The notes below the pieces were generated by a model. It was not told where the DNA came from. It did not search any database and saw only the letters and a list, made by a program, of their open reading frames with translations. DNA of 64,000 bases, from assembly GCA_002104985.1 (NCBI GenBank), contig MCGO01000001.1, forward strand, positions 806,001-870,000, read 5' to 3'. The first letter of the stretch is position 1. Every line of letters starts with the position of its first letter. The position numbers and the translations under genes are program-made. This stretch comes from Rhizoclosmatium globosum. Lineage: Eukaryota; Chytridiomycota; Chytridiomycetes; Chytridiales; Chytriomycetaceae. This document shows positions 7,491 through 38,879 of this stretch, in pieces.

Positions 7491-8415
7491 ATGGCCACAT
7501 TCAAGATTGGAGCTCTGCTGATTCGCACATTGGCGAAACCACTGGCTAATTCCCTCAAGACTCAGGTAGGCCTCTACCCATTTAGTATTCTATTCCTGGC
7601 ATAAGAGCACCAGGCGCCCATTCGGCGCCGATTTCGATACAAATCTGTATGAGCGACTGATCTATCTTTTGGGGTTCGCTAAGTGATGCTGACGATTGGA
7701 AATACTTTAGGCCGCTCAACACCCCACCTTCAAACGAGTGTGTATCAATATCGCTCAGTCATACCATCGAACCGAAGAGTACGTTTCTTTGGCATCGAAT
7801 GAAAGTGCGTTTGAGCTAACGGATAATCGATCAGGAACTTGAAGATGAAGTTCCTGGGGTACAAAGTGGAGACGATTCGGCCACTTAATGAAGCAAAGGC
7901 TGTCGAGAATGGTGCTGCTTTCTTATCAGAGCTGTTTATATTCGGGGTGCGGGTGAGCGCCCACGATATTGGATTGATTAGTGTCTGACGTCACCACTTT
8001 CCTCCCATTGATTAGGATCACTGGTTGCATACGAAGCTATACGAAGTAGTCTTAAATCAAATCAAAGGAATCGGCAAATAGATGAAGATATTATTTCGTT
8101 GCAAGCTGCTAAAGCTGCTGACGAACAGTCAATAGCAGAATTGAAGCATAAAGTCGAAACATTGGAGATAGAATCGGGAGCTCTGCGATCAGCCACGAAT
8201 GCATTGTTATCGGTCGTGGTGTTGAAGGAGGCTCAACAGCGAGCATGGTTACCTGGATGGCATCGTGGCAAGATTGACGAGGAGTTGAAATTGGTGAAGC
8301 GTAACTTGGACACTGCTCGCAATATTGAGGTTGATCGTAAGTGGTTCGCACTCCTCAGTTACCAGTCGCTGATCCAAATGTTGTGGGACATTCATTGAAA
8401 GAAGTTCCCATTTAA
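7491..8415 (+). CDS. OPA3-like mitochondrial protein
   Basis: OPA3-family proteins sit in mitochondrial membranes; their biochemical role is not settled. The frame opens MATFKIGALLIRTLAKPLAN, the family's N-terminal block, continues with AAQHPTFKRVCINIAQSYHR and LKMKFLGYKVETIRPLNEAKAVENGAAFLSELFIF, then after an intron GSLVAYEAIRSSLKSN and a coiled coil (QAAKAADEQSIAELKHKVE). Four introns are likely. The 3' end is uncertain: read-through stops at 8398, whereas splicing GTAAGT (about 8338) to a CAG near 8368 would end with KEVPI and a stop at 8415. It probably shares a bidirectional promoter with ATP synthase gamma. Confidence 0.8.
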
Positions 8416-8516
8416 ATAGAATAAAGGTCGCATTTGTGGAAAATATTGAGTTTACCGCAAAAGAATGTATGCTTTAATAATATGGCCAATAATTAACTCC
8501 CTTCATCAAAGTTGAC

Positions 8517-9325
8517 TTATTTTCCCCCCAACGTCTTTCCAATAATACCCTTTCCAGCACTTAATGAAGCGGATTTTGCAGCGGAAGCTCCTGCCTTTGC
8601 AGCAGCCTCCTCTGCTTTTCGCGCAGCAGCCTCTTCTCTTTGCTTCTTGATGATTGCAAGACGAGCCAAGTCTGATTTAGCCTGATCAGTCTTTCCTTCA
8701 GCTTGCGCCTTCCAGAAAGCAGCCTTCTTCCTCTCCGCCTCGAGAGCCTCCCTATTGTTTCAGATTTGTGTGGTCAGTTCAAGCCACCCCAACCCCCTGT
8801 TACAGGCCAAACAAGGTACAAGTACATACTTTTCCTTACGACTGAGGTTCGTAGCAGGAGCAGCAGCCGAGGACAGGTCCGAGGCCTTCAAGTTCTTTGC
8901 AACGGCCCTGTTTGCATTCACAGTTTTGAATTCCTCGACGGCTCCTCGATTTCGATTTTCCCGATTTCGAGGATTGGTCTGTCAGCGGATCTGTAGATTG
9001 CGCCATCGGAGGCAAGGCCCTGTGGCCGGCGTGGCGGGGCCTCGCCAAAGACATCGACGTCCGAGTCTGAGTCAGAGGCGTCTGAGTCTGAGGCGGCGAC
9101 TCGGAGTTTCTCGAGTTGCGCAACGGATCGGTCGATGGATTCGGCGTCGGTGAATGTGCGTGGGCCGCCTCGTTTGGTCTGTGTTGTCGGTAAGTGTCAG
9201 AGTGTGGTCGAGTAGGGTTCCTATGGGGACTCCAATCCACAGGTGACGAGTACCTCATTTGAATGCATTCAGTGGCAAGAACGTACCTTGTTGAACTTGG
9301 CTCCCTTCTTGGCTGCTCCACTCAT
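8517..9325 (-). CDS. PDAP1/HASPP28-like acidic phosphoprotein
   Basis: Related to the 28-kDa heat- and acid-stable phosphoprotein family, whose function is poorly defined. It begins [13 protein letters not shown], then [20 protein letters not shown], a Ser-Asp run ([14 protein letters not shown]), a block with [16 protein letters not shown], and the family C-terminal signature [34 protein letters not shown]. It ends in a Lys/Ala/Gly tail with the stop at 8517. Two introns are likely. One base seems missing just before [13 protein letters not shown], since the frame through [13 protein letters not shown] hits a stop while the next frame carries the conserved block. Confidence 0.75.
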
Positions 9326-9557
9326 CTTAGTTTGAAGTTGGTTTTTTTCTTCTTGTTGCAATCACTTTGAAACAATCACCCATAGATTTAGTATTAATCT
9401 CATTCCATAGAAGTAACATGCATCAGTAAGGAAAGATAGATTTCACGTGATCGACACTGTGCAGAAACCAGACAATTCTCTACTCCAAACTTCCGAGAAC
9501 CGCCTCTCCCTATACATCCAGGGCCCTTTTTAGTCGGTTCGGTTTTGGAAGGAGAAT

Positions 9558-11973
9558 ATGTCAAACCATCGTCTATCCACAGCCCTCGGCGCTTTCCCCA
9601 TCTTCCAAACCGACAATCCATCTCATCTATCTTGTCCTCACCAACATCGAAAGGCTCAAACCTCGCCGCTAATTATCGAAAGAATGATGAAAACTCGTGT
9701 GGAACGAGGGAGTATCAGTATGACCTCTGGAAGGAATATTGCTACGGGACGAAGTCCACTCAACATGTCCACCCAAAATGCTGCTATAGCTGCACAAGTA
9801 CGAAGACCAGGCGGCTTACAACACGCCTTCAGTCGAGACGTGTCGGTGTCGAGTAGCTTTATTTCGCTTGATCGAAAAGTCAGGGGATTTGATGCGGTCA
9901 CAACTCAGCTTTCACAGCAGGCCACCAAAGATGTCATCAAGAAAGCACATGAAACGAACGGAGAACCTATAAAGGGACCCATGATTCTTGAAATGGTTGG
10001 AAATTATTTCTTCACTGTCGTGTTCTGGCTGTCGCGAATCAAACAAACTGGGCTCCGTATATACGTTTTATATGGCTTTTATATATATAGTGATTTCTTT
10101 TGGGGTGGTTCAGATTACACGGATAGCTCATTCAAAGAATGACAGTGCCAACATTCAGTTTTATTTGTCCTTGATACCATTTGCCTGCTACATATTCATC
10201 TCTCGCGAAGCTCATTTAATAGCCTTTCTCCTATGGTACATAACGTTTATGTTGATATACCTGCAGTCGGGTTTACCGGAATGGAAAAGAATATTACAAT
10301 ATACGGACTTGTAAGTTTCCTCTGACTTATCTGATCGACTCATATATTCAATCAAAAACACCACAGATATGCCTCTTTATTTATTCTGCACCTTAGTTGT
10401 CATGGTAGCATTTTATCAAGCTAGTTGTAGTTTTGCAGTTTGTGGGCAACCACTGACCCCACCATCAGCTACCAAAACGAAATTATGATATCATTAGCTG
10501 CAATTGCCTTAACAGGAAACATTATTCTCGTCGATCAATACATCAAACTAAACGCCGCCACACTGCTCGAACGCGATTATTCCTCAAACAGCTGTACAAC
10601 ACAAATGTCGAGCTTCGAAAACAATTACGGAAAGAGAATCGAATGAACGTAGTTGATTTGGATCCCCACTCACAAAAGTGTTACAGATCTTGCATGATGT
10701 CAAGGAAGAAACCTCAGATAAACTTATGGTGAAAGAATTGGATCGGATTATGAAAGTTCTGCATTCGGATCAGTTGTATACTCCTGACTGTTTCAGAAAT
10801 CTGCCGATGCAGATGTCGGGGAATGGTTGAAAGGAATGATGCAGACTGCCAAAACTGATCTCTATGTAGCACCAAAGCCAACGGTGCAGCACTGTTAATC
10901 CGATGGTACATTTTCGTTGACACCGGAAGATCCGATATCTTTGCAAGAGACGCGAGTGTTTGAACTCTTGAAGAACATTGATGATTCGAACTTTGATGTC
11001 GCCACTGTGGAAACAGAATCTGACGGGCGTGTATTGTTCTATGTCGGATACTATCTATTCGCAAAACATGACTTACTGAGCCGACATAAAATACCCGAAG
11101 CAACATTCCGAAACTGGTTAATGCGAATAGAAGCCGGATACCGAGGCAACAACCCCTACCACAACGCAATCCACGCCGCCGATGTAGCCCACTCCATGAA
11201 CTACTACATAACACGCACCCGAATATGGCCCAACATCACCCCCGAAGAACAACTCGCCTCCTTCATCGCCGCCATAATCCACGACTTCATGCATCCAGGC
11301 GTAAACAACGCCTTCCTCGTCAACTCCACAGACCCCCTCGCCATTCGATACAACGACACATCCGTCCTCGAAAACTTCCACTGCGCAACAGTCTTTGAAA
11401 TCATGGACGCAAACCCAGACCTCAACATCCTCAAATCCCTCACCCAGACTCCCAAAAACAAGTCCGCGAGACGATAGTCTCGGCCGTGCTTGCCACGGAC
11501 ATTGCGATGCATTTCGATTGGATCGGGAAGTTCAAGAATAAAATGGGGGTGAGTGGGGGTGGGATTAATTTCGAGGTTAAATTGGATCGACGGCTTTTGA
11601 TTAATATGGCTATTAAATGTGCGGATGTGAATAATCCGTCGAAGCCGTTGGTTTCGTGTAAGCGTGGACGGATAAGATTATGGAAGAGTTTTTTAGGCAG
11701 GGGGATGAAGAGAAGAAGCGGGGATGCAGGTTTCTATGTTTATGAACCGGCTGAACACGGATATTCCGAAATGTCAGATTGTACGTGAATTTTTTTGGGT
11801 GTTTCCTATTTATTACTAATCTTGTGGGTTAGGGGTTTATTGACTTCATCGTGTTTCCGCTCTTTGATGTGTGGGCTCTCTTTATGCAGGAAGACCTCTC
11901 GACACAAATGCAGAATATAGCCCTGAACAAACAGTATTGGAAAGATCAAACAATAGTACAACCGCAAACATAA
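9558..11973 (+). CDS. Membrane-anchored 3',5'-cyclic nucleotide phosphodiesterase (class I)
   Basis: Hydrolyses cAMP and/or cGMP. The N-terminal third is basic and Ser/Thr-rich, then carries several membrane segments (YFFTVVFWLS, YMAFIYIVISFGVVQI, FYLSLIPFACYIFIS, LIAFLLWYITFMLIYL, MISLAAIALTGNIILV). A linker/coiled region follows, then the PDEase I catalytic domain with YHNAIHAADVAHS, AAIIHDFMHPGVNN and NDTSVLENFHCA, the metal-binding signatures, and KCADVNNPSKP plus GFIDFIVFPLFDVWALFMQE at the end. Apparent single-base losses lie near 10060, 11470 (before ETIVSAVLATD) and 11722 (in a G run before MQVSMFMNRLNTD). Start codon not certain. In zoospores such an enzyme could shape cyclic-nucleotide signals; that role is inference. 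Confidence 0.85.
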
Positions 11974-32222: not shown

Positions 32223-33833
32223 GTTTTTGTTCATTTCCTTTTCTGAAAAGATTTTTTGTGAAGTATAATAGAGCGATTTGTCGTTTAAAGTTGCATGTTT
32301 TTGATGGAACAACTTCTCAAGGGTGGTTTAAAACCCCTCCAAAGAACATCTCCTCAGAAACTTTAACTTCTCAATAAGATATGTCAACAGATTCCAGTCC
32401 CACTTTGATTCAAGAGTGCCAACATTGGTGCTTGACAAAGAATCCTTGTATTCCAGCCAACAAAAACTCTGAGAGATGTCTTTCCTATGGCTTCAATTGT
32501 AAAACTACAGAACGCTTTTTCGGAAACAAATAATAAAACAATTGCTGTACTCAATTTATTACCTGGACTACTGGAATTTGTGTCCGCAGAATAAGTAAGT
32601 TGACATTGAAAGAAAATAAGTAGGTTTTCTGTCTCAGGATGCAGTCTAACTGGTACTCACTTGCAGGTGGTGGTTCTTCCATCATGTTAATATTTTTTGA
32701 CAATAGGGGTGGTCAAAGTTGAGAAATTAGACAAAATGAAACGCGAAGATTGGAGTGTTTGAAAAGCAATGTTTCATCATTTTGTTGAAACCTGGATACA
32801 GGAGAGTCAGAGTTTGGGTTTCAAACCACGGAATCTTGAATGTCCGCTCTGCTACAGTTTTGGTGGTGAATCACGAATTACAATTGTAAAACTCAAAATC
32901 AGCTCCTCAGTGCAGAATCAAAAAGCGAGGTAGAGCTTTTGCATTTGAGGATATTTCAGAAACTTCACTTTTTGCACTTATGAAATTGTACAATACACCC
33001 ACCCCTGCTCATAGCATTGCTGAGGTAAAGATCAGTTTGTGTGTGCATGATTATATAGTCAATAACCACAAGGAGATTGGCAGGTATGAAGGAGTTCTCA
33101 GCTACCTGAGAAGATTGAGTATCTCTGATGATGGCTTGAAAACGGAGGAGGCTCAGAAGTAAATGCAACAGAGCATCTCTTAGTTAGATACCCGCAGAGG
33201 CACTCTTTCTGGTTCTGAAATGCCCAAAGTTCGGTTTTGGATTCAAAAAGGATGAGGTGGGTCTGCTTTTCAACTTTGCAATTCACTTTTTGCATTTCAG
33301 TTTCGCCTTTTGCCACCATCATGGCACCAAAGCCAGTGTTACAACCACCAACAGAACCATTGCCAGACTTTCCAATAGACTTGTGTTGGATTTATCAAAG
33401 CGTGAGATATTGATAAACAACGATTTTTGCGCAATCGAAGTTTTCGATCTTCATAGTGGGTAGTTATCGCAGTATTCCACACGATGTTTATTGTTGAGCT
33501 TATTGTCAAAGGATTCTGTATCTATGTATCTATCACAAGGACAATGGCAATATGAAGGCTTGAACGCAGAGTTCTTTACTTGAAAGAAACATTTGCCACC
33601 CACCCCTTTGCCACTTCGCTGTTCATTTTCTTACCTCCATTGCATAAAGTTTTTACAAATTGGAAATATGACAAAAGGAGAAGCACAAAGAAACAGGAAT
33701 AAGGAGATACTTTAAACACATGTATTTTAAAATTTGAGGATATCTATGCTGGATGGGTGGAGATTCTCCAAGACAGCAATAGACTCATATGAATCAATCA
33801 CCCCAGTGGAAACAGGATATGTAGAACCAGCCA
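32223..33833. other. AT-rich intergenic region with transposon debris
   Basis: No gene supported. It contains a degenerate inverted-repeat element (32704-33006) and further short segments that echo it (for example GGATTCAAAAAG near 33240). Short open frames are not protein-like. Confidence 0.5.
32704..33006 (+). repeat. Degenerate copy of a TAGGGGTGGTCAAA-ended element
   Basis: Starts TAGGGGTGGTCAAAGTTGA, like the element at 41377, and shares with it the following about 120 bp (GAAGATTGG.., ATGTTTCA.., GTCAGAGTT..) and an internal GAATCAAAAAGCGAGG-type block. The right end is eroded (CACCCACCCCTG near 33006). A non-autonomous, decayed copy is the simplest reading. Confidence 0.4.
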
Positions 33834-33839
33834 CAAGGC
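33834..33839. repeat. Target-site duplication CAAGGC, left copy
   Basis: CAAGGC directly abuts the left terminal repeat; the same hexamer directly follows the right terminal repeat at 38247-38252. Confidence 0.85.
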
Positions 33840-33865
33840 TAGGGAAGCCGAAAGCGTTCACCCAA
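33840..33865 (+). repeat. Left terminal inverted repeat (26 bp)
   Basis: Identical to the reverse complement of 38221-38246. Beyond 26 bp the two ends diverge (TAAAATTTT left, CAAAAAAAA right). A 66-bp segment starting here recurs inverted at 34993-35058. Confidence 0.9.
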
Positions 33866-33885
33866 TAAAATTTTCTCTCTACACA

Positions 33886-35995
33886 ATGACCCAATGCACC
33901 ATATGCAATGAATCCGATTCCCGCCGCCTCCCAGATCCCGAAATCATGGCACAACATCCATATTGCTTTGGGTGTATTGCAAAGGCTGAACTCAAGTTGA
34001 CATGCTCTGCTTGTGGAGCTACTGGCAGCGGCCTTAATTTCGAAAGCATCAACAGTGAAATGCACTTCTGTAGGGTATGTATCGAAATTCACGATCCGCA
34101 ACATGTTCATGAGGAGGAGCAAGTGTTTGGAGTCTCTGAATTGAATGAGACAGACTGCGATGGTTGCGGTTGTGCTTGGCCTGAATCACTACTGTACAAC
34201 AAGCTTGAAGGCAACGATTTCGAGATTGAAGATAATGAAGCTGACACTGATGGAAATCATACTGCTCTATTCTGTCAGGCCTGTGTGGATCGAATCATTC
34301 GTGATGCTAAAACATCAAATCCTGCCTTGAATCCACCAACAGTTGTGCCTCAAACTATACAAAATGGATACTTAGAAACCAAACAGATTCGACGTATTTT
34401 TTCTGAAAAAGAGTGCTGTCGAGATGCAGATGATATTTTGATTTGGTCCGAACCAGGCGAGGAAGTTGTTTATCACAGATGTAAGGATTGCATCAAATAC
34501 TGTATCACTGTAGAGCTGTTTTGGAGAAATGTTCAATATGGAGACATTCGGAAGGAATTGGTAAAAGCAGGGATCACTGAATCTAATTCAGACTCCTCAT
34601 TTCGCAGATACTTGAAAAGCATTAATTTGAAGAGGAGGACAACAGCAGAGGAAAAGGTTTTCATTGAGGCCAAAGCAAAGGAATGGATAAAGTATTATCG
34701 TGAAACTGTTGGGATACGTTCAGGATATCGAAACATTTGGTTTGATCTGCGTTTTACTCATCACATTCCAATCACCAGGTTTGTCAAATTTTGTTACATT
34801 CTGTTCTGAATGTCTGCGTTGTAGGGACCGTGTTCTGGCGTTGCTTAATGAAATGGAGCCATCAAATGTTCTGGCTAGAACCCAAAACAGGTTGAAGCGC
34901 CGAAACTACACTGGAAAAGGTCCTTTTGAGAAGCTGGCATTTGATCAACATGACAAATTCAGTAGGTTCCCACAGACTTCATCTCTATCTAACATATGGT
35001 GCATTGGGTCATTGTGTAGAGAGAAAATTTTATTGGGTGAACGCTTTCGGCTTCCCTATCTTTTGTGAAGGAATATACAGACTCTTTGTGTCAGGTGGAA
35101 TAGAATGCTGGTCACGGTATATGGCATGGTTCAAAGTTTGGAGTCAAATCGCCAGGGTCCACTTGTTGCATATTGGTACTTAGAATCATGTCAACCATTT
35201 AACGCCATTCATGATACTACCATTTCGGATCAAGGTGGAGAAAATAACTACCTTGCTCGGTTGCAAACCACTATGCGAACTGAGTTGGAGCCAACAGCAA
35301 CTCCAGAGCAGGTTAATAAGTTCCATCGTGTTGTACTGGATTCCCGTTTAAACCAAAAAATTGAATGTTGGTGGTCACATATGCTGTATGAATGGGGAAA
35401 CGACATCTTGGACTTGTTGGCTTTGGCACGGGAGCGTCAACTGTACGATCCTACTGATCCTTTGGAAGGGTATACCCTAGCACAAAACGTTTTTGTCTTT
35501 TTCTGACAAACAACTAGGGCGATTTTCCAGTTTCTGGCTATTCCATATTATCAGCAGTTTTTCGATGAGAAACGTCGGACGTACAATGCAAGAAGCAAAC
35601 GTGCACAATGGAAACGCAACCTTCCAAGTGGTTACCTCAGCAGTCCCTCCAACCTGATGAGCAACTCATCTGACTTTGGAGGCATTGACCACCGTATACG
35701 CTGCCCTATTGGCTACTTGGCAAAGAAGATGGCTGAAATTCAAACTGAAAACTCAGAGCTGTTTTCATTATTTCCGGAGAACGTGTTGAGCTGTCTTCGC
35801 CATGCAAGGGCTCTGTTTCCTGGGACCATTCAACAAACAAACGACATTTGGCCAATTCTTCGTGGTATGGTCAGATATATGCGTGAAACTGGTTCAAGCA
35901 CAGTAGTAGTAGCCTGTGTTGAAGGAGAAGTTGACATGCACTCTGACCAAGACACTGAACTTTCTTCTCGATTGGAAAGAGATCTACAGTTCTGA
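33886..35995 (+). CDS. Integrase-core (DDE) transposase with N-terminal cysteine cluster
   Basis: Catalyses cut-and-join of the element. The N-terminal 120 residues hold repeated Cys pairs (CTIC, YCFGC, CSAC, FCRVC, CDGC, FCQAC). A DNA-binding-like helical region follows (VQYGDIRKELVKAG..SFRRYLKSINLKRR). After an intron (34780-34825) comes RLKRRNYTGKGPFEKLAFDQ, then SGGIECWSRYMAW, SDQGGENNYLARLQ and NQKIECWWSHMLYEWGNDIL, matching the order GPN-xxHxDG-HGGIDGYSR-DxGxEN-NQRIExxW of the fungal integrase-core family. The catalytic triad is D (34943-34945), D (35228-35230), E (35363-35365). The 34962-35070 segment behaves as an intron. Apparent single-base losses lie near 35130 and 35500. The start codon lies inside the left subterminal repeat. 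Confidence 0.82.
34993..35058 (-). repeat. 66-bp inverted copy of the element's left end inside a transposase intron
   Basis: Perfect reverse complement of 33840-33905 over 66 bp; flanks do not match. It lies inside a segment with GTAGGT near the 5' end and GTGAAG at the 3' end (34962-35070) whose removal joins DKF to IYRLFVSGGIECWSR in frame. Confidence 0.85.
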
Positions 35996-36086
35996 TTGAC
36001 CACAAATTAAATATCTTTTATTCAGCACTTATAACACACTTATAACAATTAACAAAATAAATCAGCTAACAATTATCAACCAGTCA

Positions 36087-38135
36087 CTATTCAGTTTCGT
36101 CGTTCATCTCATCTGCAAGACCAACCTCAACGCACAGATTAGAACACTTGTGATTCTTCAAAAAATCATCAAAGTATTGAGTAACGTTTCCTTCGCCAAA
36201 GCACCTGTATATAGTACTTGAGTCAGATTTGGAACAACAGGGAGATAATCTTACAAAAACTGGTTCTCTGATACAATTGCAGGATTTGTCACGACTTGAA
36301 AGTCAGTGAGGCAGATTGACTTGCTCTTTTCCATTTGGGTGATAGTGCCTGTTGAAAAGGAAGGTTAGTAAATAATAGACAAAAAATAGCCCACCTTGAA
36401 TGTCAACAAGAATAGCCATACCATCAGAGTCTTTCAGAGACAAGTGCATAATACATTCGAAAAACAGGTTAAGACTATCAAATTCATCTCCAGTGTTGAT
36501 TGGAGTAAATCCATAGTTGGCATAAAATTTACAGAACGTTCCTGGCAAGTAGCGCTCGAGAACAAACGTGGAACCGTCAGCTGTTTTGGCAAGAAGTGGC
36601 TTAATAATCTGAAGTGAGGACACATCACAGACATTCCGCACTATCGGTGGCCAAGTTAGATAAGATTTCAGAATAGCAACTCACAATGATCTTTCAAACA
36701 ATCATATGTCTCCAAGCACTGAGTAATAAAGTCGTGGGCGTAGAGCTGCTGTTGGCAGTAACTCTGTTGACCAACATGTTCTGGAGTTTGCAAAACAATG
36801 TCTCGTCTTTGCATCTTGACAACCCAAGATGGAACGTCCCTAATTACTTTTGGCGTTTCCACTCCTGAAGTTCCAGGTGCAATGCTCACCCGATGGCAAA
36901 CCCGCGTAGACCCAGTCCCAACCACATTGGCATCAATCGTGAGATTGACAGTTCCAATATCTTGAAAATTGATTTCATCACCATCCCGGCAAGGCTGTTG
37001 GACAGAGGCGTGGACATAACGCGGAACACGACCAACCATTCTGACGGCACTTGAGCCAGTGGGCAGTGAGCGAGAGCGTTCAACTTCAGGACGTTGGCGA
37101 GAAACCTTGCGGCAAGAACTGGTATGGATTGCAAACTCATTTGAACTTACTCTTGCAACTGGGGCAGTGGCTTTCTTCTTTGGTAGCTTTGGCGTGTGGT
37201 GTGGAAGATGTTTGTGGATCAAACTGGATGCATTAAGCTCAGCACCAGGATTGTTGCCCTTCATGGTGTAGATTTCAGTGCTGGCTGTCTCGTGTTCAAC
37301 TGTGGCATACACTTTGTTGATCCGTTCACATTGTGGAGACGTAAGGAATGCCGCCAATTCACGAAAAGTTGTAGTATCAGAAAACTCCATCTTTTCTTGG
37401 ATGAGATTCTTGACTTCAGTATAGACAAAACCATTTGTAGACTTAGACTTCACAGCTTTATATGCCACAATCTCGAAGGTGTATCGGAGCATTCGGGACA
37501 CAGTTGCAGCAGGTACAGCAGAAGATCGAACACCATTGAAATCACTTAAGGCTTGATTACGGAGGCGTTCTTGCTTGTGAAACCGTTGATCCATCATATT
37601 TGGAATATTTTGATGTGTGGTTTGAGGTCCATTGGATCCTTGAAGTGAGTTAGTTTCAAATGGCTTCAACAAACACAACATACCAACTCCTGATCTAGAA
37701 GCGCGAATAAAGCAACCACAACAGAGACGAGCTTGATCGTATGTTTCAGACGCAGGCTGACTACAGTTCTCACAATTGGCAGCTGGCTTACAAGCATCAC
37801 AGTAGCGAAAGGATCCCACAATGGTCAACAGTGCTGGCAGGACATGTTTGTTGCATTCATCGCAACTGAGACGGTTTGCCGTTGGTCCATTGAGTCCCTG
37901 TGTAGCACTTAAAAGGCGGGAGCTGGTAGATGGTGACTGTCCAATCTGCAGGGGAGCTTGTGGAGTTGCGTAAACACGGCTGTCTGGAACGTATTCGCTG
38001 CTGCCAGTAGACCGAGTTTTCGATGCAGCTATGAGGTTCTGGAGCCCTTGTTGCGAGATGGTGTGTCTCCGTCTGCTGTCCTGAAGCATTTCGAGTTACT
38101 TCAAAGAGTTTTTCGAATGCTCGACTTACATTCAT
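36087..38135 (-). CDS. Alpha-kinase (atypical protein kinase) carried by the transposon
   Basis: A predicted Ser/Thr kinase of the alpha-kinase family (eEF2 kinase/myosin heavy-chain kinase type). The N-terminal half has a Cys cluster (CDECN, YCDAC, CENC, CCGC) and a Ser/Pro/Arg-rich linker. The C-terminal kinase reads SWVVKMQRRDI (putative ATP-lysine block), YAHDFITQCLETYDCL, STFVLERYLPGTFCKFYANY, GMAILVDIQG, ICLTDFQVV, CFGEGNVTQYFDDFL and the zinc motif NHKCSNLC, in family order. Four introns are likely (near 37680, 36690, 36395 and 36250). Start at MLQDSRRRHTISQQG (38089), or at a two-codon first exon (38135) spliced by GTAAGT to the CAG at about 38087. The stop is at 36087. The reading frame is unbroken over 470 residues, so selection may have acted recently. 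Confidence 0.85.
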
Positions 38136-38220
38136 TCCGTGCTTGGCAGTACTGTCCCGCCCATCTTGTGAGTTCTTTGGGTTGGGTGGGTGGTGGTGGT
38201 GGTGGATTGCATTTTTTTTG

Positions 38221-38246
38221 TTGGGTGAACGCTTTCGGCTTCCCTA
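38221..38246 (-). repeat. Right terminal inverted repeat (26 bp)
   Basis: Reverse complement of 33840-33865 without mismatch, followed at once by the CAAGGC duplication. Confidence 0.9.
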
Positions 38247-38252
38247 CAAGGC
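38247..38252. repeat. Target-site duplication CAAGGC, right copy
   Basis: Same hexamer as 33834-33839. Removing the element and one copy would leave an A/G-rich sequence continuing on both sides. Confidence 0.85.
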
Positions 38253-38879
38253 AGAACAGACAGAAAAACAAGAAAAACATGGATAAAGACAGAGAAAGAA
38301 TCAAAGAAAGAATTAAAAGAAGAAGAGAGAAGCATGACCACCGTCGACAACGAAGACAACAAGCACTAAAGACCAGAACAGCAAACCAAGAACAAGCAGA
38401 AGGAAGAACCGCAGAAAACAGACAAGAGGAGACACTCAACAATGGCAACTTAGAGTGGGAAGCAATGCAGGAGAACGGAGGAAATGGAATAACAAGTGGC
38501 CAGGAACAAGTACTCTGGGAGGGGAGACATGGGGGAAGGAAGAGTTGAAGGGGTTGATTTGTTGAAGGGATTGTATATAAAATGCCATTTAAAGGAGCCA
38601 GAGCCGTATTGTTGGGGGATGAGACGAGACCAAATGGAGAGAACGTGATAATAGAGAGGTTTCACAGCTCATTATTCTTTTCATTTTTCCTTTGGTGGCG
38701 ACAAAGATTTCCTCGTGGAGTTTTTGTTTTCGAATAAAAGAAATTCAAATTTCCATGGATGCAACAACTGAAGCTGTCAAACATGCTAAAAAGCGTCAAA
38801 TTCATTAGCTTATTTGCAGCCATAGGAGCCACATTCATGCTTCTGATTCCTGAATCTAAGGCCATCCAAATTCCAGACC
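38253..38879. other. Purine-biased region without a supported gene
   Basis: The plus strand is rich in A and G (AAAGAAGAAGAGAGAAGC and similar) and gives a long Arg/Lys/Glu/Gln open frame (38281-38548) of low complexity. Codon pattern is not gene-like; it may be remnant repeat DNA into which the kinase element inserted. Confidence 0.4.

Follow-up and report, generated by a model that had tools for sequence, protein, structure and literature searches.

The locus at positions 33840–38246 of the window (the whole stretch of DNA analysed here, 64,000 nucleotides, C1:806001–870000 of the chytrid Rhizoclosmatium globosum) raises the question of whether a eukaryotic DNA transposon carries a protein kinase as part of its own gene set and, if so, what the kinase does for the element. 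The left terminal inverted repeat (33840–33865, + strand; TAGGGAAGCCGAAAGCGTTCACCCAA) recurs as its reverse complement in the right terminal inverted repeat (38221–38246, − strand); the 26 bp are perfect, as originally predicted, and pairing extends to 30 of the first 31 bases. The target site duplication CAAGGC, identified by direct reading and from empty sites, is present on both sides, also as predicted (left copy, 33834–33839; right copy, 38247–38252). The window contains 62 inverted 16-mer pairs spaced 0.5–6 kb apart, with the left member always within 33800–33999, and each of five shuffled windows contains 0.

To identify empty sites, we searched the genome (56.9 Mb, 420 contigs) with a query comprising both element flanks fused around a single CAAGGC. 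Nine other loci match the fused-flank query at 94–96% (bases 45–238, with equal lengths on either side), and weaker matches at C89, C259, C34, and C235 likewise cross the junction. The nine uninterrupted loci support both the element boundary and the CAAGGC duplication. The matches further indicate that the element is surrounded by a different dispersed repeat, which is uninterrupted in its other copies; this repeat (window about 33765–33839 and 38253–38371) has at least nine further copies, several of them near contig starts.

The element contains two genes arranged tail to tail, with stop codons 91 bp apart (35996–36086). The transposase gene (33886–35995, + strand) comprises exons 33886–34778, 34825–34961, 35071–35469, and 35518–35995, and the alpha-kinase gene (36087–38135, − strand) comprises exons 38130–38135, 37684–38080, 37151–37638, 36685–37138, 36395–36640, 36255–36348, and 36087–36204. 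The window copy is not intact relative to the copy at C323. In particular, the transposase frame is broken by the loss of one base, near 35141, and the kinase gene is shorter by 91 bp, near 37139–37150. The C323 transposase, whose frame is open, splices to 635 aa (introns of 46, 44, and 48 nt), and the window kinase splices to 601 aa (introns of 44–50 nt, except for the intron cut by the deletion). Splice sites of the kinase were taken in part from P0001, the NCBI model of the window family's kinase, and P0001 is therefore not independent support for our kinase model.

The alpha-kinase motifs listed in the original prediction are present, and the alpha-kinase profile PF02816 matches the first spliced window kinase model across the entire domain (E = 1.2e-19, 71.5 bits; cut-off 21.3) and also matches P0001 (E = 3.6e-18, 66.8 bits). 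The window-family transposase scores 20.6 bits against the integrase profile rva_4, under the cut-off of 26, and its DDE residues were read by eye; related transposases from C394, R. hyalinum (P0005), and C157 score above that cut-off (90.8, 102.6, and 93.3 bits, respectively).

Transposase intron 2 contains a feature that the original prediction missed: an inverted 66-bp duplicate of the left end of the element itself (34993–35058, − strand), which is missing in C323. The segment 33840–35058 is consequently a 1219-bp unit between perfect 66-bp inverted repeats, lacking a target duplication of its own, and may represent an incipient non-autonomous element.

A genome scan for the 26-bp end, allowing up to 3 mismatches, revealed 11 sites on six loci, and the reversed control pattern gave 0 sites. 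The six loci are the window copy (three end sites); a 4420-bp copy at C323; a 2118-bp copy at C135:31k that carries an internal deletion; a copy with two end sites at C190; a copy with one end at C360; and a copy with one end, having 2 mismatches, at C35. The three two-ended elements differ in their 6-bp duplications (CAAGGC in the window, TAAATG at C323, and CGAAGG at C135:31k), a tally of three of three that leaves out C190, where the copy lies in a palindrome, and the one-ended C360 and C35. Pieces longer than 70 bp are 98.6–99.5% identical to the window copy at C323, C135, and C360, 92.7–96.0% identical at C35, and 90.5–97.3% identical at C190. A near-perfect large inverted repeat, about 6.9 kb across, holds the C190 copy (L035, C190:309700–319600), and is either real or an assembly effect.

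Kinase sequence is present in six of six copies, and ends flanking the transposase alone do not occur within the window family. A search of the genome with P0001 lists 36 matches (best candidates, E up to 0.001), all on these six loci, with no independent chromosomal copy among them. Dispersed copies are found in five further places, two of which (C323 and C135:31k) count as having both ends and a 6-bp duplication of their own, and the prediction that the gene set of the transposon includes an alpha-kinase is borne out. The window element is a once mobile DNA transposon, and its two genes travel together. Both genes are open in none of the copies read. Specifically, 10 bp are missing from the C323 kinase gene, bases are missing from both genes at C360, a large deletion affects C135:31k, and stops interrupt C190 and C35.

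The same gene pair recurs in more divergent elements of the same genome. Elements at C394, C410, C157, and C135:262k each combine an alpha-kinase gene with a related transposase gene, tail to tail; their transposases are 32–33% (C394), 27–30% (C410), and 30–31% (C157 and C135:262k) identical to the window transposase, and the C135:262k kinase is a relic. C157 and C135:262k represent one family, which brings the families with the pair to four when the window family is counted. The C394 element has TG..CA ends and a 5-bp duplication, CAAAC. For C410, no inverted ends were found (best score 17, versus 15–17 in shuffles). ORFs beside the C410 kinase (L014:815–3617) that appear TnpB/Fanzor-like by eye (DPG, DEHLTS, DIQAACNI) were rejected as lacking profile support: the only Pfam match is OrfB_IS605 at E = 0.35, and a PDB search returned nothing. 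Protein database searches returned Rhizoclosmatium proteins and two distant transposases, with no other matches. In particular, the partial R. hyalinum protein P0008 is 99% identical to the C394 kinase across 40% of the query, and the R. hyalinum transposase P0005 is 53% identical to the C157 transposase. At L016:1700–4200, an insertion seems to split the C394 kinase gene; P0008, encoded on a 1688-bp contig, spans that point.

By our own tally, kinase sequence lies alongside 10 of 19 loci of this transposase type, and the other nine (C346 twice, C181, C388, C82, C379, C371, C39, and C177) have no kinase match. DNA was read at three of those nine, C346 twice and C181. The elements there, 2.06–2.42 kb long, encode a transposase but give no match to the kinase, and they include a transposase-only element whose ends are intact; the three look like one insertion event, since they have common flanks and the same GTAAAG duplication. 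As this transposase-only element shows, not every member of the wider element group has the kinase. The original view of the kinase as belonging to the core set therefore holds for the window family and does not extend to all of its relatives.

From the kinase side, five of 10 distinct PF02816 loci adjoin such a transposase, compared with about 0.02 expected by chance within 3 kb. Alpha-kinases outside these elements are encoded at C101, C377, C146, C205, and C361, and decayed kinase pieces of the C410 type, with no transposase match nearby, are present at C399 and C309. L015 (4686–6014, − strand, and 7692–9877, + strand) holds an alpha-kinase gene of the host, with four DUF5763 repeats, adjoining an elongation-factor-2/G-like gene whose product matches Pfam EFG_C, EFG_III, and GTP_EFTU_D2; L013 contains ORFs similar to the L015 pair. 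Elongation factor 2 is a classical alpha-kinase substrate. Judged from these sequence comparisons, the transposase/alpha-kinase pair is real, co-mobile, and old, and the fact that transposon families so unlike one another carry it suggests a kinase that plays a working role in the element.

The kinases retain the features of an alpha-kinase active site. One kinase from each of four families exceeds the PF02816 cut-off of 21.3 bits, with spliced models from C157, C394, and C410 scoring 27.4, 82.5, and 119.1 bits, respectively (the last from a model that spans a frame break). An alignment of four element kinases and a host kinase, with pairwise identities to the first sequence of just 17–22%, has 11 invariant columns, including a Lys, a His, two Asp, and the HxCxxxC motif; we take the Lys and Asp residues to be catalytic and the His and Cys residues to be the zinc residues of alpha-kinases. 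In the C410 kinase, GxGN is lost and the placement of the Lys in the alignment is doubtful. A profile built from these kinases, host kinase included, matches solved alpha-kinases with a best E-value of 2.1e-21, compared with a weak E of 0.07 in a single-sequence PDB search with the kinase. A structure model of P0001 from an 8-row alignment was discarded (mean pLDDT 30).

For C323 versus C190, dN/dS is 0.51 over 362 codons of the kinase and 0.39 over 389 codons of the transposase; the remaining pairs give 0.25–2.15 from few changes, and two are undefined. Values only moderately below 1 are weak evidence of selection, since copies decay after insertion. Conservation of the predicted active site across families is better evidence, and the kinase appears to be a long-standing component of the element that selection has maintained.

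A zinc-knuckle motif appears in the kinases and transposases of some families. Scanning 17 sequences with the pattern C..[TS]G.{4,6}C..C gave seven matches: the C394 kinase gene has two at its start, the C157 transposase has three in its N-terminus, and L009 and L034 have one each, which look like chance matches. The same motif occurs three times in P0004 (the C135 transposase), twice in P0005, and not at all in P0001–P0003 and P0006–P0008; two of these six, P0003 and P0008, are models with downstream starts. In the C157 kinase, the motif is present as a variant with longer spacing. The C394 transposase, read by eye, has no such zinc module, and a structure model of the P0005 transposase was set aside (mean pLDDT 54; below 50 for residues 1–114, the zinc region). 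We scored similarity against 1000 shuffles that kept cysteines in place. The N-terminus of the C394 kinase was matched by 1 of 1000 shuffles against the C157 transposase and by 1 of 1000 against the R. hyalinum transposase; the C157 kinase compared with the C157 transposase, by 30 of 1000; and three cross-family controls fell under the shuffle mean. The Cys clusters of the window-family kinase and transposase have no likeness beyond the cysteines in this test (311 of 1000 shuffles as good). A zinc module shared within an element had been suggested for two families and was not borne out: C157 is the only element in which both predicted proteins carry the motif.

The explanation that we favour, with somewhat better than even confidence when taken whole, is that the locus is a DNA transposon of the IS3EU kind with a gene set consisting of a DDE-type transposase and an opposite-strand alpha-type protein kinase, the kinase being active and serving the element. 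Its parts differ in strength. We hold the co-mobility of the pair and the IS3EU-like nature of the element with high confidence, and we consider it likely that an intact element encodes an active kinase. It is rather probable that this kinase acts on the transposition or silencing of the element; most likely, it would phosphorylate either the transposase complex or local chromatin proteins, and the phosphorylation would tune transposition or relieve silencing. That the transposase itself is the substrate is possible but doubtful. According to the relevant part of PMC3902898, a host kinase phosphorylates the Mos1 transposase and lowers its activity, which makes transposition control by phosphorylation plausible in principle. 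A stronger and more tentative proposal, which we consider improbable, is that the alpha-kinase is an ancestral core part of fungal IS3EU elements, in chytrids and Dikarya, acting as a partner of the transposition complex that exerts phosphorylation control. A common zinc-knuckle address, [YF]CxxTGxxxxxCxxC, would then draw kinase and transposase toward one another or onto the same DNA. The odds of this proposal are lowered because only C157 has the motif in both proteins. If this proposal is true, a eukaryotic DNA transposon would be controlled by a protein kinase that it encodes itself. The occurrence of the pair in four divergent families, with active-site residues of the kinase kept, makes self-encoded phosphorylation control of a DNA transposon a testable idea.

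Other roles for the kinase have to be weighed against these proposals. It may be an anti-silencing factor, modifying chromatin or the silencing machinery rather than the transposase, a reading that overlaps with our favoured explanation and that we regard as possible though not probable. In TET-bearing IS3EU transposons, a TET/JBP gene, proposed to aid escape from methylation-based silencing, lies between the transposase and kinase genes (Kojima 2025, PMC12730594, in the section available), indicating that elements of such kind do carry anti-silencing factors; the window element, however, has no TET gene in the 91 bp between its stop codons. Alternatively, the kinase could be a passenger that acts on host physiology, for example on translation via elongation factor 2, with no role in transposition or silencing. 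Known alpha-kinases such as eEF2 kinase and myosin heavy chain kinase act on host proteins, and the transposase-only relative at C346/C181 also speaks for this reading. The same gene order in four divergent families, the conserved active site, and the C157 element, whose two proteins both carry a zinc motif, argue against a passenger, which we consider unlikely. That a single element has recently picked up a host kinase as stray cargo is extremely improbable: the genome does hold alpha-kinases outside the elements that could have served as a source, but the pair and its arrangement are common to divergent families, and the same pair occurs in IS3EU transposons of other fungi (PMC12730594, as excerpted), and we rejected recent capture as already contradicted by both.

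Set beside published descriptions, the favoured IS3EU-like assignment fits the termini and duplications. As defined in the available text of PMC10045372, IS3EU/GingerRoot elements have TA..TA termini, usually 6-bp duplications, and an integrase-like DDE transposase; TA..TA termini (TAGGG..CCCTA) are present in the C1, C323, and C135 copies, and 6-bp duplications in all three two-ended elements. The TG..CA ends of C394 are as recorded there for GingerRoot, from which C394 differs by its 5-bp duplication, and the word "kinase" occurs 0 times in that text. Styx, an IS3EU-derived element of Zymoseptoria, likewise combines an IS3EU-type transposase with further genes; in the portion of PMC10853768 consulted, these encode GATA-, CCHC-, and DUF3577-domain proteins, and no kinase is given.

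The closest known systems are the TET-bearing IS3EU transposons. The pairing of transposase and alpha-kinase had been put forward as possibly undescribed, but it is already mentioned in passing for other fungi in Kojima 2025: in the accessible part of PMC12730594, TET-bearing elements from rust fungi, together with one from Tuber indicum, carry oppositely oriented genes for a transposase and an alpha-kinase, with the alpha-kinase mentioned twice, in one passage, and its function not discussed there. A literature search of non-exhaustive coverage, partly in excerpts, found no further account of an alpha-kinase or protein-kinase transposon. The window element shares with the TET-bearing elements the opposite orientation of the two genes, the 6-bp duplications, and the TA..TA termini. 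It differs from them, as described in that part, in its chytrid host, in its ends (TAGGG..CCCTA versus TAYGG..CCRTA), in its perfect inverted repeat of 26 bp versus "longer than 30 bps", and in having no TET/JBP gene between the two genes; because of this absence, with only 91 bp separating the stop codons, we do not file it under the TET-bearing subgroup. Alpha-kinases described as "highly expanded in the rusts" (PMC4469406, in excerpt) may be transposon cargo of this kind. Compared with solved alpha-kinases (MHCK-A, TRPM7-type, eEF2K, and ALPK1), the element kinases share the domain and the catalytic and zinc residues, and differ in their very low identity, their Cys-rich N-termini, and their location on transposons. 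New here are the chytrid host, the lack of a TET gene, the great divergence, and the zinc-knuckle motif in the kinases and transposases of some families; the kinase–transposase pair is now seen outside TET-bearing elements, in four divergent families, with the predicted active-site residues of the kinase kept.
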